Shown here one piece after another: positions 12,806-39,307 of a stretch of DNA of 64,000 nt (position 1 is its first letter; every line of letters begins with the position of its first letter). The stretch is from an uncultured Dyadobacter sp. (GTDB lineage: Bacteria; Bacteroidota; Bacteroidia; Cytophagales; Spirosomataceae). Under the pieces are notes generated by a model. The model worked only from the letters and a program-made list of their open reading frames with translations. It was not told where the DNA came from and searched no databases. The DNA lies in NCBI RefSeq assembly GCF_946482605.1, contig NZ_CAMLSE010000009.1, positions 186,001 through 250,000 of the forward strand. Direction: 5' to 3'. Position numbers and translations under genes: made by a program.

Positions 12806-14596
12806 TCATTCCCATCCCTGGGACTGTTTCAGGTTCGTATTAAGAATGGTCTGTTCGAGGGGAATCGGAAAATAATAGTATTTCGACTCGATGAAATTTC
12901 GCGGCTGCTGTTTGTCGCGGCCAAACATGATGTTGCCGGAAGTTCCCTGAGACAGGTAAAAACTGCCGTCTGAAAGGTAATATTTGACAATCTTAGCCTT
13001 CACATCCGCGGGTAGTCCTGCCAGGGGCGCTTCATCCCCTACCGCTTTAAGTATCGCAATGTCTTCCACGCCGTCCCCGGTGACGTCTATGCCGCCAAGC
13101 GAAGGCACATAAATTCCCCGGGAGTCCTGGCCAAGCAGCGCCCCGCTCTTCCAGCGATACAGATCATCGAAACGCAGACCTTCACAGGCCATTTCGGTGC
13201 GCCGCTCGCGGCGTATTTCTAGTATCACGCCCTTTCCTGCTCCTGCCACCGCCGGATACCGGCCCGCCAGATAGGGATCGGGGGCCGCATTCGCCGCTGC
13301 CAGGTTCAGGCTGGGCATCCCAACGCGACGTCTGAGCAGGTTAATGGTCCGGTCCAGATCGCTTTGGGTAATGGTGCCCAGCTCAGCCTTTGCCTCCGCG
13401 TGAGCCAACAGTACCTCGGCATAACGGAAAATCGGCAGGTCGGTATAGTTCAGGCCCCAACCTCCTCTCAGGGCCGGGTCACGCGGGTAAAATTTGAGTT
13501 GGAGATACCCTCCAAAACTCGGCTTGATCACGTAAGGCGTGTTAGTGGCCGGCACGTTAGAAAATCCCGGGGGCATGATCGTTTCTGCCATCCGAGGGTC
13601 GCGGTTGCGGAACACTTCTGTGAATGTTTTCTTGTCGTAACCCGCCTGAGATGTAAATGCGGTGCCGTCGCTCATCAGAAACTCGTTGGCCAGACTTCCG
13701 CTTAATGCCCATTGCCAGTCGAGCACCACGTGGGTGTTGTTGGCTACTCCTTCCTCTTTGCTGTTTTTCTGGAAAAATATGACCTCCTTATTCGCCGAGA
13801 GGTTGTTGCTTGAAAAAAGGGCTCGGAAATCACTGGCGCCATTTCCGGTGCTGTGAATCTCAAAACCGCCCTCCTCCATAATCTTTTGAGAAGCAGTTAC
13901 GGCCCGTTCCAAAAACCGGGATGCAGTACCTTTTAAACCCAGTTCGTCGTGGTAAGTTCTGTAAGTACCTTCGTGCAGGGCTACCCTTGACAGTAATGCA
14001 AGCGCCGCCCATCGGGTGATCATTGTCTTGTTGGTGCGCGCGGGCAAAACATTGGCAGCTGCAAATTCCAGGTCACTCATCACCGAGTCGACCACAAGTA
14101 CCCGCGGGTCTTTGGCTTTATAGAGCATCTGCTCGTCGTCGGTTCCCATTACGTGCGAGTACCAGGGCACATCCCCGTACCGCTTCACCATCCGGTAGTA
14201 GAACAGGGCGCGAAAAAAGCGGGCTACGCCAATGTAATGGTTGATCACCGCCGCGTCTCCGGTCGTTTTCGACGTATTGTCCAGCATGTAATTGATACGG
14301 CGAAGCTCACCCCACGTGTTCCAGCCGCCCACATTGCCAGGTGTAATGCCACCGCGTATGAGGTTATCCGTTTCGTTACCACCCGTGTTGACGGAGATAT
14401 TGTCGGAATACAGGTCGTCCCAGCTGGCGCCAAAGCTTCCGTAAAGGCCATTGGTATAGGTTTCCAGGTCGGCCGGTGTATTGAAAAATTCTTCTTTGGT
14501 AATAGCGGTTTGCGGGTTTCGCTGAAGAAAATCATCGTCGCAGGACGACAGCAGAAAAAAGCCCGTCAGGATTGTAATATATTGGATTACTTTCAT
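12806..14596 (-). CDS. SusD/RagB-family surface lipoprotein
   Basis: 596 residues. Lipoprotein signal peptide with lipobox LLSSC (Cys near 19). The SusD fold is shown by the N-terminal DFLQRNPQTAITKEEFFNT, the TPR-like ARFFRALFYYRMVKRYGDVPWY (the conserved helix with the GDVP turn), the REIRRERRTEMACEGLRFDDL segment and the C-terminal YYFPIPLEQTILNTNLKQ. SusD proteins sit on the outer membrane as the lid over a SusC transporter and bind its substrate. It follows SusC by 20 bases. The substrate cannot be read from sequence. Confidence 0.95.
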   Translation of the reverse strand: MKVIQYITILTGFFLLSSCDDDFLQRNPQTAITKEEFFNTPADLETYTNGLYGSFGASWDDLYSDNISVNTGGNETDNLIRGGITPGNVGGWNTWGELRRINYMLDNTSKTTGDAAVINHYIGVARFFRALFYYRMVKRYGDVPWYSHVMGTDDEQMLYKAKDPRVLVVDSVMSDLEFAAANVLPARTNKTMITRWAALALLSRVALHEGTYRTYHDELGLKGTASRFLERAVTASQKIMEEGGFEIHSTGNGASDFRALFSSNNLSANKEVIFFQKNSKEEGVANNTHVVLDWQWALSGSLANEFLMSDGTAFTSQAGYDKKTFTEVFRNRDPRMAETIMPPGFSNVPATNTPYVIKPSFGGYLQLKFYPRDPALRGGWGLNYTDLPIFRYAEVLLAHAEAKAELGTITQSDLDRTINLLRRRVGMPSLNLAAANAAPDPYLAGRYPAVAGAGKGVILEIRRERRTEMACEGLRFDDLYRWKSGALLGQDSRGIYVPSLGGIDVTGDGVEDIAILKAVGDEAPLAGLPADVKAKIVKYYLSDGSFYLSQGTSGNIMFGRDKQQPRNFIESKYYYFPIPLEQTILNTNLKQSQGWE

Positions 14597-14616
14597 TTCA
14601 GTAAGGAATTTCAGTG

Positions 14617-17600
14617 TTAGAAATTAAAATTCAACCCGCAGGAGTAGGTACGCTGGAACGGATAGGCGGCACTTCCAAACGATTCAGGATCCAGGTTAAC
14701 TTTGAGATGGGAAATCTCAAACAGGTTTTCTACACTCATGTAAAAACGGACTTTGTCCAGCCGGGCCTTTTTAAGAAGGCTTTGAGGCAAAGTATAGCCC
14801 AGCGTGAGGTTTTTCAGGCGGGCGTAGGCAGCATTCTGCATATACCGTTTGTTGGGTATCCCCAGCTGCTCCATATTGTCCTCGGCTGCATAGGCGCGCA
14901 ACGCCGGGAAATAAGCGCCCGGATTCTCAGGGGTCCAGTGATCCATATTCTGCACGGTCACGTTTGTCCACGGCTGCGCAAAGACTCCCCAGAAATAAAT
15001 GTTGGAACCGCCCGGATACCAGTCGCGCTTTCCGATTCCCTGCACAAATGCCCTGATATCAAATCCTTTCCAGCCTCCCGACAGATCGATCCCGTAAGAC
15101 AACCGAGGGCTCGTGTTACCGATCTTGTACAGGTCGCCGGGCTTGTCGACCGTGCTGTTTCCTTTGTCGACAACTCCATCGTTATTACGGTCTTTGAATT
15201 TAGGATCCCCTACAAAAAACTGATAGGACTGATCGTCGGTACCCATTGCGCGTTGGTCGGGGTGGTCTTTCAGCTCCTCCTGATTCTGAAAAAAGCCCTC
15301 GATTTCGGCTCCCCAGATTTCGCCGATCTCCTGCCCTACGTAATAGTTGCTTAGCAGTCTGGTGGGATTGTCAAACCGGGTAATTTTAGTCCGGTTATCG
15401 GCCAGTGACAGGTTGATGTTGTAAAAAAACGGAGATCCGGCAAGCTCTCCCCTATCCCGCCAGTTTAAACGAAGCTCCCATCCGTCGGTTCGAAGGTCGC
15501 CTGCATTGACCCTGGGCACACCGGTACCGAAAACGGCCGGCAGTGTCTTTCCCGCAATCAGCATATCGCGGGTGTACCGGGTATACTTATCGAAGTTAAG
15601 TTCGAGCCTGTTGCTGAAAAAGGCCAGATCGACGCCCATATTAAGGGTTGAAATGGTTTCCCAGCTGTAATTATCCGAGACAGCGCCGGGCGCGTTGACA
15701 GTCACCGGACGTCCCGTTCCCAATATCTGCCCTACCTGGGCACTGCTCATCGTGGGGATATAGTCATAATTCCCTACCGCGCTCTGGTTCCCCAATGAGC
15801 CGTAGGATCCTCTTATTTTAAGCAGATCCAGCTTTAATGCATTTCTAACCGGGCTAAAAAACCGCTCTTCTGAAAGCAACCATCCCGCAGAAGCAGAGGG
15901 AAAGAATCCCCATCTTTTATTTTCGGGGAACCGCGACGTACCGTCATATCTTCCGTTCAGTTCCAGCAGGTAGCGGCTTTTAAAATTGTAGGCCAACCTG
16001 TAAAACAGGCCGCGCAGCGCATTGTCACCTATGTTCTCCGATACCTGCATGGTGCCCGTACTCAGCCCTATCGACGGAAGCGCATTGGCGATCAGATTGT
16101 TGCGCCGGGCAGTGTAGGTTTTCGTAATCCTGTATTCCTGATTGTAACCGACAAGTCCCTGGACAAAATGATTGCCGATATTTTTATGAAAATCGGTATA
16201 AAGGTTAAATACGGAGTAGTTGGTATTGGTGCTGCTGTTCTGTGCCCAGGTGGTGGTACTGCCCGTATATGACACCGGGTTATTGGGCCCGGTTTTATAG
16301 GCGATGGGGATATCAAATGAATTTGTAAAGGATGCTCCGCGCCTGAATGTCGCTTCGCCCTTCACATCCCACACATCTTTGATCAATGCAGCATTGAATG
16401 AAAAGGTAGTCTGAAAATCATTGGTCTTTGTGTCAGCTCTTCCGCCTTCCGACAGTCTGCCCAGCAAACCGGCGCCGGCGGATGTCCAGCTTCCATCCGG
16501 ATTTTTAGGGACGTCCAGCGAACTGGTCCTGTTCACGTTCCAGAAAAAATCGCCATTGATAAATACCGGCGTGTCGTATTTGCTTCCCGTCAGGAGGGTG
16601 TTGTTGGAGAGTGTCAGCCATTTGGTTGCATTCAAATCCACTTTGCCCCGTGCATTATACCGGTTATAGATGTCGTTTCCGTAGCGCAGCATGCCATCCT
16701 GCCTGTAATAATCACCTGAAAAATAGTAACTTACCTTATCTGACCTTTTTGAAAGGCTCAGATTGGTATTGTAGGTCGGTGCGCTGCTCATGTATGCCTC
16801 TTTCATCCAGTCAGTAGCACCATAGTAGGCCCAGTTGGCCGTATTGGTCGGGTCGGGAATGACGGCTGGCAAGGAGGGATTGGCCGATCGTTCTTTCGCA
16901 TACACACGTATCGCGTCCGGGAACAAGTTGTAAAGAGGCGCTGCCGCATCGTGCTTGTATTGCATCACAAGGTACGGGTCGGTAACCAGCTGGGGCAATT
17001 TCCCCACCGTTCTGTAAGCCATATTGGCATTAAGGCTCACATTCATTTTATTACCCTTGGCGGTTTTGGTAGTAATCAGAACTACCCCGAATGCGGCGCG
17101 GGCACCATAAATGGCTGCGGCGGCGGCATCTTTCAAAACAGACACCGTTTCGATGTCGTTGGGATTAAACAATGCAATTTCACTCATGGTGAACGGCACG
17201 TTGTCGACCAGGATTAACGGCTCGCCGCCATTGATGCTCGTAAAACCGCGGATGTTGAAACTCGCCGCGGTGTTGGCCCGCCCATTGCTTAGCGAGATAT
17301 TCAGGTTTGGAATGAGTCCCTGTAACCCCGCGCCAAGACTGGTTAGAGGCCGGCTTTCCAGCTGTTGCGCGGTAACGGCATCCACTGCGCCAGTGAGATT
17401 TGCTTTTTTCTGAACGCCAAATGCAACCACGACGATCTCATTCAGGTTTTTGTCTCCGGGTTCCATGCTGATCCGTAGCTGGCCCGAAGCGGGTACTTTC
17501 ACTTCCTGGGTGATGTAACCGATGAAAGAAACAACGAGGATTGAATTCGCGGTAACCTCAATGGAAAACCTGCCTTCCTCGTCGGTGGTCGTGCCTGAGT

Positions 17601-18215: not shown

Positions 18216-19355
18216 TTACTGAATGATTATAGTATTTCCGTTTTGTTCGAACTGGAAAGGGATGATGATCTGCAATGCCGCAAGCGCTTCCACAATGCTT
18301 TCATTATGAAAAACCCCGGAGAATTTTCGCTGCCGCAGTTCCTGGTCGTTGATCTCAATATCGACATTGTACCACTTTTCCATTTTATCGATCACTTCCG
18401 CAAAAGGCTGATTGTCAAACACAAGTACATTGCTGACCCACGACACTTCGGGTATCACCTTAGCGAGTGCACTCTCTTTCAGGGCTTCGATCCGGTAATG
18501 TGCCTGGGTTTTCGCGAAACGTCCCTTTGAACTTTCTGCGGTGCCCGGGTTCAAAGCTGCATCCGCCGGGGGGCCGTCCTGGTCTATCGTTATCTTTTCA
18601 TTGGGCTTCAACTGAATCACCCGATCGGGTTGGGCGCGGTCGGTCAGTTCTACCGATCCGCGGATCAGCGACGTTTCGACTTTGTAACTGCTGGGGTAAC
18701 TCTTTACATTAAACGCAGTGCCCTTGACGAGTATGTTCACCCCCCTGGCATGCACGACCAGCGGCACACTGGCATTGTGTGCTACGTCAAAAAAAGCCTC
18801 TCCGATGAGTGTTATCTCCCTTTTGTGCTTTCCGAAATCGCTGTTGTAGGTGAGCCTGCTCTCACCATTGAGCCACACGGAAGTGCCATCAGGCAGCACT
18901 TTTTTCAGGCGCTTTCCGCGTTGTGTTTGCATTACCATATCTCCCTGCCCTGACTCCGGGGAAATTTTCGTCAGAGCATCCTTTCCGCTCCATCCCGTGT
19001 AATAAACCGCGGAAACGGCCAACAACAGGATACTGGCCGCAATGGACCACCATCGCCCATGCCGCGCATAGGAGAATACAAACGGCTTTCGGGGGCGCTC
19101 CGTCGGTAAGTTGTCCCAGTCTCTTTCCGGAAACTGATCTTCCAGCTTCTGCCGGAGGTTTTGCCAGGCCTGGTGCTTCTCGTCCGTGGTTTTCCCGGCG
19201 GCCTGCGGCCGATGAAAATATAGGCTGTATAATTCGACCTTATGGGCAAGTTCGGGGTCATTTTTCAGATGATCGTCCAAAGCTGCAATTTCATCCCGGG
19301 TGGCTTCTCCGGCAAGCTTTCGTGCAATCAGTTTCCAGACTTGATCGTTTGTCAT
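18216..19355 (-). CDS. FecR-family anti-sigma factor
   Basis: 379 residues. Cytoplasmic N-terminal helical part (about 1-90) that binds sigma, one membrane helix about 98-118 (WWSIAASILLLAVSAVYYTGW without its last residue), a FecR beta domain (GKRLKKVLPDGTSVWLNGESRL, GEAFFDVAHN without its context, VLVKGTAFNVKSY-type strand ILVKGTAFNVKSY) and a C-terminal DUF4974/STN-like domain ending in NGNTIIIQ. It holds the ECF sigma factor of 19440-19997 until the SusC STN domain signals substrate. The standard order sigma, FecR, SusC, SusD is kept. Confidence 0.93.
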   Translation of the reverse strand: MTNDQVWKLIARKLAGEATRDEIAALDDHLKNDPELAHKVELYSLYFHRPQAAGKTTDEKHQAWQNLRQKLEDQFPERDWDNLPTERPRKPFVFSYARHGRWWSIAASILLLAVSAVYYTGWSGKDALTKISPESGQGDMVMQTQRGKRLKKVLPDGTSVWLNGESRLTYNSDFGKHKREITLIGEAFFDVAHNASVPLVVHARGVNILVKGTAFNVKSYPSSYKVETSLIRGSVELTDRAQPDRVIQLKPNEKITIDQDGPPADAALNPGTAESSKGRFAKTQAHYRIEALKESALAKVIPEVSWVSNVLVFDNQPFAEVIDKMEKWYNVDIEINDQELRQRKFSGVFHNESIVEALAALQIIIPFQFEQNGNTIIIQ

Positions 19356-31328: not shown

Positions 31329-33704
31329 ATGCCTGACTTTCCCCACTACAAGCAGCTGGATCAAATGGACTGCGGCCCTACCTGCCTGCGCATGATTTCC
31401 ACGTATTTCGGTCGGCATTATACTGCCCAGACCCTCCGGGAGCGTGCGCAGATCAACAAAGAAGGGGTTTCGTTGCTGGGAATCGCCGAGGCTGCCGAAT
31501 CCATCGGCATGAAAGCGGTTGGGGTGAGGACCACCCTCGCGAAACTTACAGACGAAATGCCGCTGCCCTGCATTCTGCATTGGGGCCAAAGTCATTTTGT
31601 GGTGCTTTACAAAATAAAAACACCCGATAGTTTAAGCCGTCGCTTCCTGGCATCGCTCCGCGGCGGCCGGAAGCCGGATAGCGGCTTCCCATACCCATTC
31701 CCATCTTCGGGAAACGTCACGCACGCCGGTGGTGAAAATGGCGAAGCACCTGCGTCTAGCCCGGACGATACGCTTGCTCGGACCACATTTTACATTGCCG
31801 ACCCTGCTACGGGCCTCGTTTCTTTAACCTCCGCCGAGTTTCAGCACAAATGGCTCAGCACCCAGACAAACGGTCCCAGGCAAGGCATCGCTCTCTCGAT
31901 CGAGCCCACATCCCGTTTCTATGAAAAGGAAGGTGAAAAGGCTGGCGAACAGGGGTTCGTGCCCATGTTGAAATACCTGTGGCAGTACAAAAACCTGATC
32001 GTACAGCTCGTCCTGGCATTGCTCGCAGGAAGCGGTTTTTCCCTGCTCATTCCGTTCCTCACGCAGTCGGTGGTGGATATCGGCATCGGTACCGGAAACA
32101 TTTCTTTCGTGTATCTGGTGCTCATCGCGCAATTGGTCCTGATGCTCAGCGTGGCCTCCATCGATTTTCTCCGAAGTTGGATATTGCTCTACATCAGTTC
32201 CCGGCTCAACCTGTCGATCCTTTCCGGTTTCCTTTCTAAACTCATGCGCCTGCCCATCTCTTTTTTTGAGATAAAGCAGTTTGGGGACGTCATACAGCGT
32301 ATCGGAGATCACCAAAGAATCGAGGCATTTCTGACCGGGCAGACGTTGAATGTTCTGTTTTCATTGTTTAACCTCGTTGTTTTCGGCGCTGTACTGGCAT
32401 ACTATCACCTGACCATTTTTGTCGTAGCGATCGGCGCGTCCCTGGTGTATGTCGCCTGGGTGGTCACGTTCCTGAAAAAGCGCAGGCAGCTGGATACGCA
32501 TCGGTTCGAGGTGTCATCCCGCAACCAGAGCCAGATCGTTCAGCTCGTACAGGGCATGCAGGATATCAAACTGTCCGGAGCGGAAACATCCAAACGATGG
32601 GAATGGGAACGTACGCAGGCCAAACTCTTTAAATGGAGTGTCAAAAGTCTGTCATTATCCCAATCTCAGCATGCGGGTGCCTTACTGATCAACAATGGCA
32701 AAAACCTGTTGATTACCTTCCTGGCCGCAAAGGCCGTGATCGACGGGCAGATTACGTTGGGAGCGATGATGTCGATCCAGTACATCCTGGGCCAGTTCAA
32801 TGCGCCGGTAGAGCAGATGATGAGCTTTCTTCAGTCCTGGCAGGACGCCCAAATGAGCCTCGAACGGCTCAACGAGGTTCATCAGCTGGCGGACGAGGAG
32901 CCTCTCGACACTGCGACGCTCACACAATGGAACAATGCGCAGGACATCGTTATCCGCGATTTGTCCTTCACCTATCCGGGCGCCGGTAACCTGCCTGTAC
33001 TCCGGAACATCAGTCTCACCATTCCATTCGGCAAAACCACGGCCATTGTGGGCACCAGCGGAAGTGGAAAAACGACGTTGCTGAAACTATTGCTCAGATT
33101 CCACGAACCGCAAGGCGGCGGCATTTACCTTCGGCCGCCAAGCGCCTCAGACGCCGGCATGCTCGGCATTGCCATGATCTCGCACCGCGCCTGGCGGCAG
33201 CAATGCGGGGTGGTCATGCAGGAAGGTTTCGTCTTTTCGGATACCATCGCGAGGAACATCGCCGTATCCGACGAAGTCATTGACGAAGAGAAATTGCATC
33301 GCGCCGCCCGTACGGCCAATATTCACGGCTTTATCGCGTCTTTGCCGCTAGGCTACCACACCAGGATCGGTGCGGAAGGTAACGGCATCAGCCAGGGACA
33401 AAAGCAGCGCATCCTCATTGCAAGGTCTGTTTACAAAAATCCCGAAATTCTGCTGTTCGACGAGGCGACCAACGCGCTCGATACCAGGAATGAGGCAGTA
33501 ATCGTCCAGAATCTCAATGAGTTCTTCCAGGGCCGGACGGTCGTGGTAGTGGCCCACCGGCTCAGCACGGTCAAAAATGCCGATCAGATTATCGTGATGG
33601 AAAAAGGGGAAATCGCCGAAAGCGGCACGCACGATGAACTCGTAGCACTCCGTGGCAAGTATTTTGAACTCGTAAGCAATCAGCTTGGGCTGGCAGCGGG
33701 CTGA
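31329..33704 (+). CDS. C39-peptidase ABC exporter (leader-cleaving)
   Basis: 791 residues from the ATG at 31329. N-terminal C39 peptidase domain with Cys15 (QMDCGPTC), His89 (WGQSHFVVLY) and Asp158 (YIADPATG), all catalytic residues present. Between His89 and Asp158 is an insertion of about 50 residues rich in Gly, Pro and Ser (residues about 102-152), longer than in the family. Then five to six membrane helices (about 230-500), and an ATPase domain with Walker A GTSGSGKTT near 575, signature ISQGQKQR near 688, Walker B ILLFDEAT near 707. It cleaves GG-type leaders during export; the obvious substrate is the peptide at 38163. It heads the cluster. Confidence 0.93.
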   Translation: MPDFPHYKQLDQMDCGPTCLRMISTYFGRHYTAQTLRERAQINKEGVSLLGIAEAAESIGMKAVGVRTTLAKLTDEMPLPCILHWGQSHFVVLYKIKTPDSLSRRFLASLRGGRKPDSGFPYPFPSSGNVTHAGGENGEAPASSPDDTLARTTFYIADPATGLVSLTSAEFQHKWLSTQTNGPRQGIALSIEPTSRFYEKEGEKAGEQGFVPMLKYLWQYKNLIVQLVLALLAGSGFSLLIPFLTQSVVDIGIGTGNISFVYLVLIAQLVLMLSVASIDFLRSWILLYISSRLNLSILSGFLSKLMRLPISFFEIKQFGDVIQRIGDHQRIEAFLTGQTLNVLFSLFNLVVFGAVLAYYHLTIFVVAIGASLVYVAWVVTFLKKRRQLDTHRFEVSSRNQSQIVQLVQGMQDIKLSGAETSKRWEWERTQAKLFKWSVKSLSLSQSQHAGALLINNGKNLLITFLAAKAVIDGQITLGAMMSIQYILGQFNAPVEQMMSFLQSWQDAQMSLERLNEVHQLADEEPLDTATLTQWNNAQDIVIRDLSFTYPGAGNLPVLRNISLTIPFGKTTAIVGTSGSGKTTLLKLLLRFHEPQGGGIYLRPPSASDAGMLGIAMISHRAWRQQCGVVMQEGFVFSDTIARNIAVSDEVIDEEKLHRAARTANIHGFIASLPLGYHTRIGAEGNGISQGQKQRILIARSVYKNPEILLFDEATNALDTRNEAVIVQNLNEFFQGRTVVVVAHRLSTVKNADQIIVMEKGEIAESGTHDELVALRGKYFELVSNQLGLAAG

Positions 33705-33753
33705 TCCCGGAACAGCAAGCATTCTCCCGCATTACCCAACGCAACTACGCACC

Positions 33754-34554
33754 ATGCCCGAAAGCCCACAACGAAAAAACAATCCCGGGCCAATCGCCCG
33801 GCCTTTTCAGGAACTCCACAGCGAGGAGCTGCATGAAATCATCCGCCGCCCCCCGACCTGGCCGGTCCGCTGGGGCGTTACCCTGTTTTTTGTGCTGATG
33901 CTCCTCTTGCTGGCCGGATCATGGCTCATCCGGTACCCCGATACGGTCACAGCGCCCATGACCCTCGCTTCGGGCCTCGCCCCCGTCACCGTGTCCGCGC
34001 CCACGGCAGAAATACTGGCAGATCTGCTGGTGCAGGACGGTGATCTGGTCGCAAAAGGCCAAATGCTGGCATATACGGAAAACAAATCCGTGCTGAAAGA
34101 CAACACCACAAGGCCCGCAAAACGCAATGCCATGATCGCCCCTGCGTCGGGCAGGGTGCTTCTCGCTGCGCCATGGCAAGACCTGCGGCAGGCTTCACCG
34201 GGACAAAAGATACTGAGCATAGTACCCACCAATGACCGCGTTCAGGGAATCATGAAGCTGTCGCAATCCAGTCTAGGTAAAATAGCCGTCGGTCAGAAAG
34301 TGCTGGTCAAACTGGATGCATTCCCGTATCGGGAATTTGGATTGATCGAGGGAATGCTTTCGCACATTTCGACGTCGCCCGGGCAGGATGATTTGTATTG
34401 GGGATATATTGATTTTCCACAAAAATTAAAAACATCACAGGGACAGGAATTACCGTACCGCATCGGAATGCGAGGGCAGGCGGAAATCATAACAAAAGAA
34501 ATGCGACTGGCAGAACGTCTCTTTTTAAAAGTTTCCGGTTCGAAAAATAACTGA
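33754..34554 (+). CDS. Very short HlyD-type membrane-fusion adaptor
   Basis: 266 residues from the ATG at 33754. One membrane helix at about 46-66, then a split lipoyl (biotinyl-lipoyl-like) domain: APTAEILADLLVQDGDLVAKG and, after only about 20 residues, MIAPASGRVLLA. Family members usually carry a long coiled-coil hairpin between the two halves; here it is absent, so the protein is about 150 residues shorter than normal. The beta-barrel part (VKLDAFPYREFG) and C-terminal part are present. It should couple the exporter to the outer membrane, but its reach is limited. No TolC gene is nearby. Confidence 0.85.
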   Translation: MPESPQRKNNPGPIARPFQELHSEELHEIIRRPPTWPVRWGVTLFFVLMLLLLAGSWLIRYPDTVTAPMTLASGLAPVTVSAPTAEILADLLVQDGDLVAKGQMLAYTENKSVLKDNTTRPAKRNAMIAPASGRVLLAAPWQDLRQASPGQKILSIVPTNDRVQGIMKLSQSSLGKIAVGQKVLVKLDAFPYREFGLIEGMLSHISTSPGQDDLYWGYIDFPQKLKTSQGQELPYRIGMRGQAEIITKEMRLAERLFLKVSGSKNN

Positions 34555-34724
34555 TGCATTTCATTTTCAGCCGCTGTATTTCAAGCATTTCAATTCCCTG
34601 TTTTTAAGAAAGTATATTTTTTCAATCTTCACTAAGGGTATTTTTAGTCCAAAAAAGTCTTATAATTATCACATACCTCTTTGAGAGATATGGATAATCT
34701 TCGTCAACTGAAAATGCCCCTGGA

Positions 34725-35552
34725 ATGAATGATCTTGTCATTGGAATTGCCATTGGTTACGAATTTCCCGCGCTGAACAATTGGATTAGATCTTTGCTGC
34801 AATGCGGATTTAAAGGCAGAAAAGTATTGATACTAGGTGGGGTGTCGGCGGAAACTATTGAAAAAGTGGCGAGCCTCGGTATAGAAACGGAAGTGGTCGA
34901 TATGCCGGAAGATTACATTCCAGCATTAATTGTGGTCGATCGGTTTCTCATCCTGCATTCGTTTCTGGCTGATCAGCATGATATCAGATATGTGATCTTG
35001 ACCGATGTAAGAGACGTCGTCTTTCAAAGAAACCCCTCCGATTTCCTTGACAATTTAGGAACAGATCCCGAATTCGGGCTGATCGTTTCGTCCGAAGGAA
35101 TAAAATACAAAGATGAAGTATGGAGCAACGACAATCTGCTCGATTCATTTCCGGACGTCGCATTTGTCATGCAGGAACAAACCATTTACAATGCCGGGGT
35201 GATTGCCGGAAAACCTGGTTACCTGTCCGATCTGGCATTGCAGGTATTTCTGTTATCAAAACATAATCCGATCTCCAATCCGGATCAAACAGCTATGAAT
35301 ATCCTGCTTTCATCCCGCGTATGGTCGGAAGCAACCCGGTTTTCCAGCCATCAGGATGCCTGGACGTTACAAGCCGGAACGATGATGGATCCTGTAAAAA
35401 AGGCCCGGTATCAGTCGAAGCTGATCGATGGGGATATGCACATCAATATGGATGGCCGCGTCGAAAACTCCTCCGGTTCAGCGTTTTTTATTTTACATCA
35501 ATATGACAGGGTTCCTGAATTAAACGGGCTTGTCAATTCGCTTTACAGCTAA
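34725..35552 (+). CDS. GT-A-like glycosyltransferase
   Basis: 275 residues. N-terminal Rossmann-like part (LVIGIAIGYEFPALNNWIRS), then ILTDVRDVVFQ with Asp94 and Asp97 in the place of a metal-binding DxD, and IYNAGVIAGKP plus PDQTAMNILL as in sugar-transferring GT-A enzymes. I cannot assign a CAZy family. It lies in the peptide cluster, so the acceptor may be the exported peptide, though a surface glycan is possible. A 12-codon frame at 34690-34728 overlaps its start and may be a leader. Confidence 0.7.
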   Translation: MNDLVIGIAIGYEFPALNNWIRSLLQCGFKGRKVLILGGVSAETIEKVASLGIETEVVDMPEDYIPALIVVDRFLILHSFLADQHDIRYVILTDVRDVVFQRNPSDFLDNLGTDPEFGLIVSSEGIKYKDEVWSNDNLLDSFPDVAFVMQEQTIYNAGVIAGKPGYLSDLALQVFLLSKHNPISNPDQTAMNILLSSRVWSEATRFSSHQDAWTLQAGTMMDPVKKARYQSKLIDGDMHINMDGRVENSSGSAFFILHQYDRVPELNGLVNSLYS

Positions 35553-35608
35553 TTAGGCCTGGTACGTAAAAAATATGCGTAGGTCATTTGCTTTCATGAA
35601 ATGCTGAT

Positions 35609-36445
35609 ATGAATTCATACTTAATTGAAAAATACGGTACGATTGAAATTACCGGCGAAATCCGGAAAAATGACTATTGCATGATCGATAGTATCACACA
35701 CGGACTGTTCGCCTGCTTTTACTGCATTCTGTACGGGCTATATATATGCGAAATGGAAGATATCAAACCGGTAGTGGTTTTGGGTGACCGGAATCTGTAT
35801 TTCGAGAAGGAAAAAGGCTGGAATGTATTTACGTATTTCTATCGGAAAAGCCACCGGAAAAACCAGGAGGATTTGTCAAAACTCGCGAAAATTACCATTT
35901 CCGATCCCGGTCATTTTTTATCCTGGTGCCGCATATCCACATCCGAAAAAATCATTTCCAACTTACTGATCAACAAGTATTTTGTCCTCAAAAATTCGGT
36001 TCACAAACCCATAGAAGATTTTGTCAAAAAGCATTTGCAAGGCCATAAAGTAGTGGGTGTCCATTTCCGGGGGACCGACAAGGTGAAGGAAACGCCTTTG
36101 CTTGATTTCGCCGCCTACGAGCACCGGATCGGGCTGATGCTGACGACCGGTGTTTGCGACAGGTTTTTCTTCGCCACCGATGAGCTGCATTTAAAGGAAT
36201 ATGTGCGCAAAAAATACAAAGACAAGGCCATCATGCACGAATTGAGCAGCGCGTACGCAGGAGCGCCCGCCCAGGCCGGCCTCCATTTCTCACACACTAC
36301 GCCCTATCTGAGTGCCCTGGATGCGCTGACGGAATGCTATGTGCTGTCGCGGTGCCAGTTTTTACTAAGCTCCTCGAAATCATCCATGTCGCTGTTCGCC
36401 ACGTTTCTTAACCCGGACCTATTGCACCTTGTCATCGAACCATAA
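35609..36445 (+). CDS. Fucosyltransferase-like protein (HxRGTDK motif)
   Basis: 278 residues. Contains VVGVHFRGTDK at about 149-159 (His152, Arg154, Asp157), the nucleotide-sugar-binding motif of NodZ/POFUT/GT11-type fucosyltransferases, and LSSSKSSMSLFATFLNP near the C-terminus. The N-terminal half is divergent, with a short hydrophobic segment near residue 30. Its donor is inferred to be GDP-linked, probably fucose or a related sugar. It starts 56 bases after the GT-A gene and ends 18 bases before the VKOR fusion gene, supporting a common transcript. Confidence 0.7.
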   Translation: MNSYLIEKYGTIEITGEIRKNDYCMIDSITHGLFACFYCILYGLYICEMEDIKPVVVLGDRNLYFEKEKGWNVFTYFYRKSHRKNQEDLSKLAKITISDPGHFLSWCRISTSEKIISNLLINKYFVLKNSVHKPIEDFVKKHLQGHKVVGVHFRGTDKVKETPLLDFAAYEHRIGLMLTTGVCDRFFFATDELHLKEYVRKKYKDKAIMHELSSAYAGAPAQAGLHFSHTTPYLSALDALTECYVLSRCQFLLSSSKSSMSLFATFLNPDLLHLVIEP

Positions 36446-36463
36446 ACCAACCCAGTACCTGAT

Positions 36464-38077
36464 ATGCTGCCTTTTTCTTCACGATCCCGCCAACCCGTCG
36501 TCGGAACGGTCAGCCGATTCCTGAAAGCATTACACGTAAAAGTGTCGGAAGGGACGGTCGAGGACCGCATTCTCTCGCACCCCGATTATCCCAGCCTGCT
36601 TGCCGTGAGCGACTGCCTGCACCGTTGGAAGGTTGAAAACGTCGCCGTGCGCGTAGATCCCTCGCAACTTGACGACATCTCACTGCCCTTTATGGCGCAC
36701 GCGCACAGCGATTTTATGGTCGTAATAGGCATCAGTGGCGAGCAGGTGATACTTTCGGACGAAAACGGCAAAGAACAGGCTATCGATAAAAAGGTTTTTC
36801 TTCAGTTGTGGGACGGCGTGGTGCTGATCGCGGAACCGGAGGCGGATGCCGGGGAGAAAAACTATGCCAAAGAACAGCGCAAACAAAACGGCAGACTGAT
36901 CCCCGCCCTCGTTTTCCTGGTCGCATTGAGCGGGATCATCGCCCTTTCCGCAGGCCTGCCTGGTGCGGGCGCCCGTTCCGAGGTGGGTTACGGCATCCTG
37001 GTCCTGGCCAAACTGGCCGGTATCGTTATCACCGGCGCGCTGCTCTGGTATGAGATCGATAAATACAATCCCGCTATCCAGAAGCTATGCATGGGAGGGA
37101 GCGGCAAAAAAACCGACTGCAATGCAATTCTCAACTCCGATCACTCCAAATTGTTTGCCTGGCTCAGCTGGGGTGAGGTAGGCTGGATTTATTTCACCGG
37201 AAGTTTGCTTTACCTTCTCTGCTTTCCGCAATACATTCCTTATGTGGCGTGGCTCAACCTGCTCGCTTTGCCTTTTATTGTTTTCTCGATTTCCTATCAG
37301 GGGCTCGTCGTTAAGCAATGGTGTGTGCTCTGCCTGTCGGTCATGGGCCTTTTGCTGTTGGAATTCACAGGCGCAATGCTTGGTCAATTTGCTGCCACGA
37401 ACGTTCTGCCGGAGCTTTCAATTGCATTCATTCCTGTCCTCAACCTTACCTTATTGCTCCTACTCGTTGCTGCATCCTGGTTTCTGTTAAAACCCGTCCT
37501 GATTCAAATTCATGAATCGAAATCCTACAAATATGAATTGGCCAGATTAAAAAATAACAGGGAAATTTTTGAATCGATCCTTAGCAAACAAACCCACGTG
37601 TCGGGCACAGAAGGATTGGGAATAACACTGGGTAATCTGCAATCTCCCAACACCATCCTGAAAATATGCAATCCCTATTGCAACCCTTGCGCAGAAGCGC
37701 ACAAGGACCTGAGCAGGATACTGGACGACAACCTGAATGCCCGTGTCCAGATTATTTACAACTCATCCGTCTCGCACCTCGACGCCGGAAGGGAGCCCGT
37801 GAGGCATTTTATGGCCACCGCCCAAACTGCCGGACTTCCGGATATGAAAGCATTACTGGATCAATGGTATTTCAGTAAAAACAAAAATTTCGAAAACTTC
37901 TCTGCATTACATCCTGTCGGAGACGATATGCTCGAAAAACAGGACGAAAAGATCAAAGCCATGTTTGCATGGACTCGTGCCAACCATATTACTGCAACCC
38001 CCACCTATTTTTTCAATGGAAGAAAACTCCCCTCTCAATACAAAATCACCGATTTAGAACAACTACTATCTAATTGA
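36464..38077 (+). CDS. Fusion of dead C39-like, VKOR and thioredoxin domains
   Basis: 537 residues. Residues 1-125 align with a C39 peptidase domain but the catalytic Cys is Val13 and the His is Asp83, so it cannot cleave; such domains can bind leader peptides. Residues 155-320 are a four-helix VKOR with outer Cys209 and Cys219 and the active-site pair Cys287-Val-Leu-Cys290. Residues 385-537 are a thioredoxin-like domain with Cys402 and the CxxC pair Cys406-Asn-Pro-Cys409. VKOR passes electrons to quinone and, through the thioredoxin domain, makes disulfides. In this cluster it should oxidise the six-Cys peptide at 38163. Confidence 0.88.
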   Translation: MLPFSSRSRQPVVGTVSRFLKALHVKVSEGTVEDRILSHPDYPSLLAVSDCLHRWKVENVAVRVDPSQLDDISLPFMAHAHSDFMVVIGISGEQVILSDENGKEQAIDKKVFLQLWDGVVLIAEPEADAGEKNYAKEQRKQNGRLIPALVFLVALSGIIALSAGLPGAGARSEVGYGILVLAKLAGIVITGALLWYEIDKYNPAIQKLCMGGSGKKTDCNAILNSDHSKLFAWLSWGEVGWIYFTGSLLYLLCFPQYIPYVAWLNLLALPFIVFSISYQGLVVKQWCVLCLSVMGLLLLEFTGAMLGQFAATNVLPELSIAFIPVLNLTLLLLLVAASWFLLKPVLIQIHESKSYKYELARLKNNREIFESILSKQTHVSGTEGLGITLGNLQSPNTILKICNPYCNPCAEAHKDLSRILDDNLNARVQIIYNSSVSHLDAGREPVRHFMATAQTAGLPDMKALLDQWYFSKNKNFENFSALHPVGDDMLEKQDEKIKAMFAWTRANHITATPTYFFNGRKLPSQYKITDLEQLLSN

Positions 38078-38162
38078 TATCACGCATTCAAAACAGTACC
38101 TGGTAAATTGAACCTATGCTTACAGGGTTTAAGATGTAAGCGCAACTACATAAAGCAATACA

Positions 38163-38357
38163 ATGAAAAAGATCAGTTTGAAAAATGTGCTGACATCTCT
38201 CACAAGAGATGAAATGAAAAAGATCATGGCAGGTTCAGGATCCAATTGCGAAGCAACTCCCTATTGTAATCCCTATGCCCATCCGGGCGACGGAGATGCA
38301 TGCTGTTCGGGAAGAAAGTGTGACACCTGGAATGGAAATATCTGCGTAAATATATAG
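38163..38357 (+). CDS. Precursor of an exported six-cysteine peptide with knottin-like order
   Basis: 64 residues. Leader residues 1-24 (MKKISLKNVLTSLTRDEMKK then IMAG) match the Bacteroidota GG-type leader, with Ala-Gly in the place of Gly-Gly. The predicted core is 40 residues with Cys at core positions 5, 11, 23, 24, 29 and 37: order C-C-CC-C-C with loops of 5, 11, 0, 4 and 7. That order is shared by inhibitor-cystine-knot peptides such as O-superfamily conotoxins. The core has Ser/Thr sites that could carry sugars. Its exporter, oxidase and glycosyltransferases precede it and a strong terminator follows. Target unknown (antibacterial, signal, or effector). Confidence 0.85.
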   Translation: MKKISLKNVLTSLTRDEMKKIMAGSGSNCEATPYCNPYAHPGDGDACCSGRKCDTWNGNICVNI

Positions 38358-38405
38358 GCTGGATATATCCAGGGGTTTCCCCTCAACTGTTCCTAATCTG
38401 AACCT

Positions 38406-38447
38406 GTAAGCTTGCCGGGTCTTTGAATTCCGGCAAGCTTACTTTAT
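38406..38447 (+). terminator. Strong terminator after the precursor gene
   Basis: Perfect 13-bp stem GTAAGCTTGCCGG / CCGGCAAGCTTAC (38406-38418 and 38430-38442) with an 11-base loop, followed by TTTATT. It ends 12 bases before the start of the next gene, so read-through would set expression of that gene below that of the peptide. Confidence 0.85.
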
Positions 38448-38458
38448 TGGCACATTGC

Positions 38459-39307
38459 ATGACTGCCCCACCATCAGTAGATCAGAAAAGCATCGGCACT
38501 ATTATTTGTTATTTTGGTCCCATTCCATGGTATTTCAACTACTTTCTCCATTCATGCCAATTTAATTCCAGTGTTGATTTCTACGTCATCACCGACCAGA
38601 TAGCCGGACACCCCGACGCACCTCCGAATGTTACATTCATTAAAATGTCCGTCGGCGAGTTCAATGATCTGGCTTCTTCCAGACTTGGCGTAAAAACGCA
38701 GGTCACCAATGGCTATAAAGTATGCGATTTCAAACCGATGTTTGGCTTGATCTTCGGCGACCTGCTGCACCCATATGATTATTGGGCGCAAAGTGATATC
38801 GATGTGATATACGGCGACCTACGCTGCTTTCTCGATGAAATTTTTGGGGCCGGTTACGATTATATCAGCGTCAGGCATGACTTCACAACGGGCTGCTTTT
38901 CCGTTTTCAAAAACAATTCATTGGTAAACAACCTGTTTTGGAAAAGCAAAGACATTGAAAAAGTATTATCCGAGCCAACCCATTATTGTTTCGACGAATG
39001 CAATTTCGTGCAGCCGCTTTTAAATGCCGGAAAGTCAATTTGGGAGGTCGATACCGAAATTTACAGCTATACCCACATCATCCGCGAAGCAGAACGTTCC
39101 GGGTTCATTCAAGCGCATTTCGATTTTATTCTGGTGGAGGGAATTACGGGGAGAATCAAATTCAGCCATGGAAAAATCATTTACAATAATCAGTTTGAAG
39201 CCATGCTGTACCATCTTTATATGCTGAAACGAGTATACACACCTGGAAAACCTCCTAAAAAAATACCCGGTCAATATAAAATCAGTCCGACCCGGATCTA
39301 TTTTTAA
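38459..39307 (+). CDS. DUF6625-like putative glycosyltransferase
   Basis: 282 residues from the ATG at 38459; the in-frame TTG at 38423 lies in the terminator loop and is rejected. GT-A features: IGTIICYFGPIPWYF, YVITDQ, SDIDVIYGDL with Asp113 and Asp115, and DFTTGCFSVFKNN. The best fit I recall is the DUF6625 family of nucleotide-sugar transferase-like proteins seen in glycan clusters. Its acceptor may be the peptide, but the terminator just upstream means it may not be co-transcribed. Confidence 0.65.
   Translation: MTAPPSVDQKSIGTIICYFGPIPWYFNYFLHSCQFNSSVDFYVITDQIAGHPDAPPNVTFIKMSVGEFNDLASSRLGVKTQVTNGYKVCDFKPMFGLIFGDLLHPYDYWAQSDIDVIYGDLRCFLDEIFGAGYDYISVRHDFTTGCFSVFKNNSLVNNLFWKSKDIEKVLSEPTHYCFDECNFVQPLLNAGKSIWEVDTEIYSYTHIIREAERSGFIQAHFDFILVEGITGRIKFSHGKIIYNNQFEAMLYHLYMLKRVYTPGKPPKKIPGQYKISPTRIYF

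Follow-up and report, generated by a model that had tools for sequence, protein, structure and literature searches.

The window analysed here, a stretch of 64,000 nucleotides from an uncultured Dyadobacter sp., contains at positions 31,329-39,307 seven open reading frames (ORFs) encoding a peptide exporter, its adaptor, three transferase-like proteins, an oxidase fusion and a small cysteine-rich precursor. Comparison with related loci indicates that they belong to a real and widespread branch of disulfide peptides directed by a leader, some of them knottin-like, and that this branch apparently has not been described before. In the open-licence full texts searched (subscription papers being outside this scope), no description was found of the fusion paired with such peptides.

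The gene set of the window

The features of the region are the following:

31329..33704, + strand: C39 peptidase-containing ABC exporter (PCAT), 791 residues (Pfam, alignment with 10 relatives)
33754..34554, + strand: HlyD-type membrane fusion protein (adaptor), short (Pfam HlyD_3, alignment)
34725..35552, + strand: GT1, putative glycosyltransferase (weak GT_PLOD match, conserved motif TDVRDVVFQ)
35609..36445, + strand: GT2, putative FUT8/NodZ-like (GDP-fucose type) glycosyltransferase, weak (Pfam matches below cut-off, solved-structure matches)
36464..38077, + strand: fusion of a C39-like domain (catalytic Cys absent), VKOR and thioredoxin (Pfam, alignments)
38163..38357, + strand: precursor of 64 residues, with a 24-residue leader and a 40-residue six-Cys core (ORF, homologues)
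38406..38442, + strand: inverted repeat, possible terminator or attenuator, between the precursor and the DUF6625 gene
38459..39307 (ORF from TTG 38423), + strand: DUF6625 protein (Pfam), putative glycosyltransferase

An earlier note on this DNA had described seven adjacent genes on one strand, and all of them were found as ORFs on the + strand in the order given there (exporter, adaptor, GT1, GT2, fusion, precursor, DUF6625), with Pfam backing the exporter, the adaptor, the fusion and DUF6625. The exporter, whose first ATG is at 31329, matches Peptidase_C39, ABC_membrane and ABC_tran, and the Cys/His/Asp triad of its C39 domain lines up with that of 10 relatives; this combination of a C39 domain carrying Cys/His/Asp with ABC membrane and ATPase domains is that of a PCAT. 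Between His and Asp (about residues 94-153) it has some 40-50 residues more than the same relatives. The adaptor (first ATG 33754) is devoid of the middle part of about 180 residues, a coiled-coil hairpin, that is present in four aligned relatives. The window is one member of the system and differs from others in its transferase set, in the order of its genes, in the short adaptor and in the longer C39 domain.

Recurrence and linkage of the genes

With the fusion as query, 7,998 candidate proteins were scored, and 259 of them came out as homologues at E up to 1e-20. Searches of genome contigs matched 350 stretches, 339 of which were confirmed as fusion relatives; the best 80 correspond to 79 distinct loci, which are the basis of the locus counts given below, belong mostly to Chitinophagaceae and other Bacteroidota to judge by their titles, and in some cases stop at contig ends. 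In 49 of the 79 loci (hereafter complete loci) the fusion is followed on its own strand by the exporter and the HlyD adaptor, and 68 of the 79 contain a leader-positive small ORF. The pathway of exporter, oxidase and Cys-rich precursor is coherent, as had been supposed, and the genes are linked in relatives rather than scattered, though the usual order there is fusion, precursor, exporter and adaptor, whereas in the window the exporter and the adaptor come first and the fusion and the precursor later. The supposition that the combination would be unusual in Bacteroidota is not supported in that form: it is common in this phylum, and 14 further C-C-CC-C-C cores with a leader turned up.

Homologues of the precursor, the oxidase and GT1 probably lie on shared contigs, to judge from matching figures for the longest contig reported: 10,882 for precursor P0001 and GT1 P0126, 78,689 for oxidase P0006 and GT1 P0127, 94,649 for P0002, oxidase P0007 and GT1 P0128, and 2,509 for P0003 and oxidase P0009. 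The fusion was present in 30 out of 195 genomes in a sample of one family and in 8 of 72,556 plasmid records, and the phage records searched with it gave no match. In an Emticicia plasmid the fusion, two small hypothetical proteins, TlpA, a C39 exporter, HlyD and TolC are encoded consecutively. Another record labelled as plasmid, from Parabacteroides distasonis (L140), contains lysS, gmk and nadD; there, a fusion relative annotated as two ORFs stands beside a galactosyltransferase-related gene.

The precursor family

The window precursor (38163-38357) shows the pattern C-x5-C-x11-CC-x4-C-x7-C, and alignment with leaders ending in Gly-Gly suggests that its leader would be cleaved after Ala-Gly. 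No Pfam or NCBIfam model matched it at the limits used, nor was there any significant match with solved structures. Nevertheless, it is not a chance ORF, since a protein search retrieved four homologues. Two of them, P0001 and P0002 (92% and 83% identity, E 2.9e-35 and 5.4e-29), keep all six core Cys, and the other two (P0003 and P0004) have the same leader with a different core; the first 26 positions of the five-sequence alignment include 21 that do not vary. For the 40-residue window core less six hydrogens, the calculated neutral monoisotopic mass is near 4185.6. A precursor with a leader and a six-Cys core had been claimed from the start and has been borne out.

Small ORFs with a related leader adjoin the fusion in the 79 loci. 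When these were pooled with the loci of further surveys, including the one-family genome sample, 125 unique leader-positive ORFs were obtained, of which 108 have an even number of Cys (two or more), 12 an odd number (three or more), three none and two only one. The odd ones were retained in the count, a few of them having Cys in the leader or before the likely start, and the excess of even numbers has a binomial p of 1.8e-20, a value that ignores shared ancestry. Training of the leader model used ORFs with at least four Cys from these very loci and took no account of parity; because of this training, the scan was repeated without the leader model.

Both scans were compared with 20 hand-picked exporter sites without a nearby fusion, where the fusion model matched nothing except the exporters themselves. 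Of the 49 fusion-bearing loci, 44 have a leader-positive ORF no farther than 6 kb from the exporter, versus none of the 20 fusion-less ones, four of which (L119, L121, L122 and L130) are short at contig ends, so that a precursor could be missed there. Without the leader model, candidate precursors were found in 46/49 and 7/20 loci, respectively, with even Cys in 63 of 67 candidates from fusion-bearing loci versus 10 of 13 from fusion-less loci. One fusion-less exporter locus (L132, 2702-4017) encodes six four-Cys peptides in tandem which carry a different leader and constitute a separate peptide family.

The oxidase fusion and its predicted topology

In the fusion (36464-38077) VKOR, Peptidase_C39 and Thioredoxin_4 each score above the Pfam cut-off. 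The N-terminal domain is C39-like (Pfam E 1.9e-8), and a profile built from 33 fusions matches the C39 region of the PCAT1 exporter (E 7.6e-5). In a joint alignment the column of the catalytic Cys holds Cys in 11/11 exporters and in none of 78 fusion rows, where the C39 His and Asp are generally not conserved either. At least one Cys is present elsewhere in this domain in 53 of 77 fusions, and in the 33-row fusion alignment no Cys before C209 is invariant. The loop Cys pair and the CXXC motif of the VKOR domain (C209, C219, C287 and C290) are found in the window and in all 77 full-length fusions, as corresponds to a VKOR oxidase; C402, C406 and C409 are kept in 74, 76 and 77 of them.

By hydropathy, five helices are clear, and that at about 236-253 is weak (family mean about 1.1-1.2) and escaped the hydropathy scan. 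The VKOR fold consists of four helices and would require this weak one. With six helices, lysine and arginine residues average 15.4 on one side versus 0.73 on the other in 33 fusions, with the same sign in 33/33, and 15.6 versus 0.71 in a larger set, with the same sign in 77/77. On the rich side are the segments that adjoin the C39-like domain, the loop with the Cys pair, the end with CXXC and the thioredoxin domain, and from this charge pattern the catalytic cysteines of the fusion are predicted to face the cytoplasm. Related to this, a survey of VKORs in the phylum, in which 23 of 30 loci were scored and seven without a VKOR-domain match by the model were left out, gave a reversed bias in 10/10 proteins with a long N-terminal domain and the ordinary bias in 10/13 without it; at most nine of the ten are new, L150 and L151 looking like near copies and L170 being the fusion already present in L011. 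The VKOR from Aeropyrum pernix is reportedly inverted and is not known to be tied to a peptide operon.

An oxidase predicted to face the cytoplasm leads to the proposal that oxidation is guided by the leader and takes place before export. With the same peptide and genes, oxidation could instead be periplasmic and follow export, as in an ordinary VKOR-DsbA system, the C39-like domain merely tethering the oxidase to the exporter. This would agree with the bacterial VKOR enzymes described in the accessible part of PMC12453122, which work in the cell envelope, with the TlpA-like thioredoxin genes of 33 of the 49 complete loci and with the weakness of one of the six helices. It is nonetheless judged unlikely, given the opposite charge bias of 77/77 fusions as compared with the ordinary one of most VKORs without a C39-like domain. 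The relationship of the N-terminal domain with the C39 domain of PCAT1, which is cytoplasmic, also argues for oxidation before export.

Knottin-like pattern of the core

Among 72 six-Cys leader-positive ORFs, 14 have neighbouring Cys at gap 3, as compared with 3, 2, 1 and 1 for gaps 1, 2, 4 and 5, respectively. The window core has the gap-3 pattern and the order C-C-CC-C-C, and when the spacing limits of knottins (inhibitor cystine knot peptides, ICK) are applied to it, its spacing is knottin-like. Of the 14 knottin-pattern precursors derived from loci, all but L036 and L062 went into A4/A5, 12 in number, together with the window precursor and two homologues. In one locus (L057, 2310-3055), three tandem knottin-pattern precursors with the spacing C-x6-C-x5-CC-x3-C-x11-C stand beside one fusion gene. 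The peptides of this locus and of L018 are knottin candidates of a clearer kind than the window core.

The model of the window core displays a C-terminal hairpin, and 17 of its 19 Foldseek matches are ICK venom peptides, judged by their titles. For the core of the relative L018, ICK venom peptides occupy the first seven ranks (best E 0.077, probability 1.00); in neither case is a match significant alone. The plant peptide gurmarin is also among the structural matches, which are otherwise mostly animal venom peptides. A disulfide-rich peptide of a different fold, with a coincidental CC pattern, has a substantial chance that falls somewhat short of even. It would suit the 58 of 72 six-Cys ORFs without CC at positions 3-4, which indicate that the machinery handles many patterns, and the low confidence of the core models (mean pLDDT, the predicted local distance difference test, 63.6 and 65.0). 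Opposed to it are the 14 ORFs with adjacent Cys at gap 3 versus seven at the four other gaps combined, and the fact that ICK peptides are the best structural matches.

In the open-licence full texts, again with subscription papers outside the scope, no report of bacterial knottins was found. The bacterial disulfide peptide actinomycesin has a fold of another kind. Actinomycesin is a defensin from actinomyces (PMC8819291).

Transferase-like genes and possible glycosylation

Glycosylation is partly supported, and the two middle proteins are weakly glycosyltransferase-like. GT1 (34725-35552) resembles GT_PLOD with E 0.0033, below the Pfam cut-off, a match shared by 5 of 24 members of its family that were scanned, and has the conserved motif TDVRD; compared with solved structures, both as single sequence and as profile, it gave no significant match. 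The GT2 gene (35609-36445) resembles NodZ (E 2.1e-4) and FUT8 (E 0.0012), both below the Pfam cut-off, and among solved structures alpha-1,6-fucosyltransferases (E 0.0017) and NodZ (E 0.089). The DUF6625 profile has no significant relative among solved structures, and comparing it with the GT1 profile gave no match; DUF6625 is a putative glycosyltransferase on account of a conserved D-x-D and its recurrence in related operons. The glycosyltransferase of glycocins is a GT2-type S/O-glycosyltransferase, and the corresponding Pfam family, Glycos_transf_2, had no match at E 0.01 in the three window proteins.

From the fusion to the end of the exporter and adaptor, the 49 complete loci hold 79 genes of at least 150 residues: 40 TlpA-like, 13 DUF6625 and 26 others. 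Nine of these 26 belong to named glycosyltransferase families (GT25 3, GT61 2, group 1 2, family GT2 1, GT10 1) and two match DUF6734. As control, 90 genes were sampled from 362 outside genes and nine touching locus ends were dropped; at least 5 of the remaining 81 are in named families (family GT2 3, GT25 2), a lower bound as the tally covers 25 of 125 families. Named families alone are not significantly enriched (9/79 inside versus at least 5/81 outside, p 0.28), whereas they are when DUF6625 is included (22/79 versus at least 5/81, p 0.0003). Glycosylation, which the earlier note had raised as a possibility, is thus a reasonable guess rather than a finding.

Any transferase-type gene, DUF6625 and DUF6734 included, is present in 14 of the 49 loci, and a named family in 5. 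The 14 loci were labelled by hand, with L019 included though its DUF6625 gene is missing from the gene list of the 49 loci. The Ser+Thr fraction of precursors is 0.227 (n=18) in transferase-bearing loci versus 0.154 (n=51) in the others (p 0.0009, in a test chosen afterwards). It has nearly an even chance that these genes serve a surface polysaccharide or another substrate and that the mature peptide is free of sugar. The lack of enrichment of named families points in this direction, as do the low Ser/Thr content of the window core (12.5%) and the DUF6625 genes away from fusions (5 of 9 in one survey), though one of these five has a C39 exporter without a fusion at a distance of about 3 kb (G184, C1 906700-912660). 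The enrichment obtained with DUF6625, the different transferase families recurring between precursor and exporter and the higher Ser+Thr content of the precursors in transferase-bearing loci speak for a sugar on the peptide. Upstream of the exporter of L011 there are four consecutive DUF6625 genes (13017-16414).

The intergenic element at 38406-38442 is an inverted repeat, perfect over 13 bp, with 14 pairs including one G-U around a loop of 9; the T-rich TTTATT comes next, and the RNA fold z is -3.6. It is not among the output of the terminator scan, whose loop limit was 8. A single further copy of the half-site, with one mismatched position, is present at 19309-19321 of the window. Since TTG 38423 sits within this strong hairpin, the likely start of the DUF6625 gene is ATG 38459. 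Promoter-like sites found by scanning the window were no more numerous than in shuffles.

Proposed pathway

The operon would make a peptide for export that carries three disulfides and has a fold resembling that of knottins. The fusion would recognise the 24-residue leader in the cytoplasm through its C39-like domain, the fusion cysteines, placed on this side by the charge pattern, would oxidise the core, and the electrons would pass to quinone. The linked transferase genes may add one or more sugars, after which the C39 exporter would cleave behind Ala-Gly and export the peptide via the adaptor. This pathway as a whole, from leader-guided cytoplasmic oxidation through possible sugar and knottin-like fold to C39 export, is considered rather probable. 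Beyond what the earlier note had noticed are the C39-like domain without catalytic Cys, the apparently inverted orientation of the oxidase and the knottin framework of the core. A bolder version is put forward as a doubtful conjecture: a widespread Bacteroidota factory in which an inverted VKOR-thioredoxin oxidase and a dead C39 leader-binder would knot disulfide-rich peptides on the cytoplasmic side ahead of export, one branch being true knottins and some being glycosylated by interchangeable transferases.

Several points weigh against the proposed pathway. It is predicted from sequence, and the loci share ancestry and are not phylogenetically independent. Three of the 13 VKORs without a C39-like domain (L163, L153 and L146) also show the reversed bias, and the topology needs six helices, one of them weak, since five would put the two ends on opposite sides. 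None of the seven window genes is TlpA-like, though two thirds of the complete loci carry such a gene, and the window adaptor is shortened. As for the peptide, its core is poor in Ser/Thr, the core models are of low confidence with no single significant structural match, and below rank seven the L018 matches are mostly unrelated.

The peptide would most likely inhibit competitors, by analogy with bacteroidetocins. A signalling peptide or a host-interaction factor would be in line with the fact that no immunity gene was recognised among the seven window genes and with the histidine kinase and LytTR genes beside the Emticicia plasmid relative. This role seems rather improbable, as varied cores under one leader suit antagonism better, and bacteroidetocin regions are likewise without an obvious immunity gene in the available part of PMC6671954.

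If the proposal holds, Bacteroidota would offer disulfide-rich peptides in large numbers that have yet to be mined, a way for bacteria to make knottins, which are prized drug scaffolds, and machinery that is dedicated to disulfides and faces the cytoplasm. What would surprise a specialist is an inverted oxidase guided by the leader and a branch of knottins from bacteria. The proposal also opens a simple question to testing: whether a leader peptide can direct oxidative folding in the reducing cytoplasm.

Comparison with known systems

The closest known kinds are bacteroidetocins and glycocins, and neither fits fully. Three-disulfide glycocins (thermoglycocin and orniglycocin, PMC12457901, as far as its text was available) share with the window a glycosyltransferase, thioredoxin-like proteins, a C39 exporter and a Cys-rich precursor. 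However, they come from another phylum, use an S-glycosyltransferase and separate thioredoxin-like proteins, 'vitamin K' being absent from that text, and have two nested disulfides plus one instead of a C-C-CC-C-C core. Knottins share the six-Cys C-C-CC-C-C spacing, the hairpin of the model and the best structural matches, but those matched are mostly animal venom peptides, whereas the window peptide has a bacterial leader and a C39 exporter.

Regarding NCBIfam models, the relative L018 scores 22.8 bits with both the CCPGW putative bacteriocin (NF047792) and leader_Chryseo (NF047798), with cut-offs of 80 and 23.5, and the window precursor matches neither. A similar leader style is found in TIGR04149, matched by 3 of 10 relatives scanned, with L045 above the cut-off; that family is named for ribosomally synthesised and post-translationally modified peptides (RiPPs) modified by radical SAM enzymes, whereas the window precursor does not match it and no radical SAM enzyme is among the seven genes. 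In the main text of a survey of Bacteroidales RiPP clusters (PMC10352776), as far as available, 'vitamin K' and 'thioredoxin' are absent. As for the archaeal VKOR from A. pernix, the title of Hibender 2017 refers to a membrane topology promoting disulfide formation in two compartments.

Bacteroidetocins, proposed as class IIf (Coyne 2019, PMC6671954, here in the part of the article available), resemble the window system in their occurrence in Bacteroidota, leader peptide, C39 exporter, thiol oxidoreductase gene and lack of an obvious immunity gene, as well as in the even Cys number of the two main members; like them, the window has a thiol oxidoreductase and a C39 exporter beside the peptide. 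In contrast, their four-gene region includes a protein with five transmembrane segments, and none is found among the seven window genes (the strongest 19-residue hydropathy is 1.65 in GT1, 1.64 in the GT2 gene and 1.04 in DUF6625), while the window has HlyD and transferase-like genes, unlike that region. Bacteroidetocins A and B have four Cys and a Gly-Gly leader of 15-16 residues, as opposed to six Cys and a 24-residue leader ending in Ala-Gly, and VKOR and thioredoxin have no occurrences in the same part of PMC6671954, whereas the window oxidoreductase is the C39-like/VKOR/thioredoxin fusion. Deletion of the bacteroidetocin oxidoreductase gene attenuated toxin activity (PMC6671954), an effect that fits the oxidase role proposed here for the fusion.

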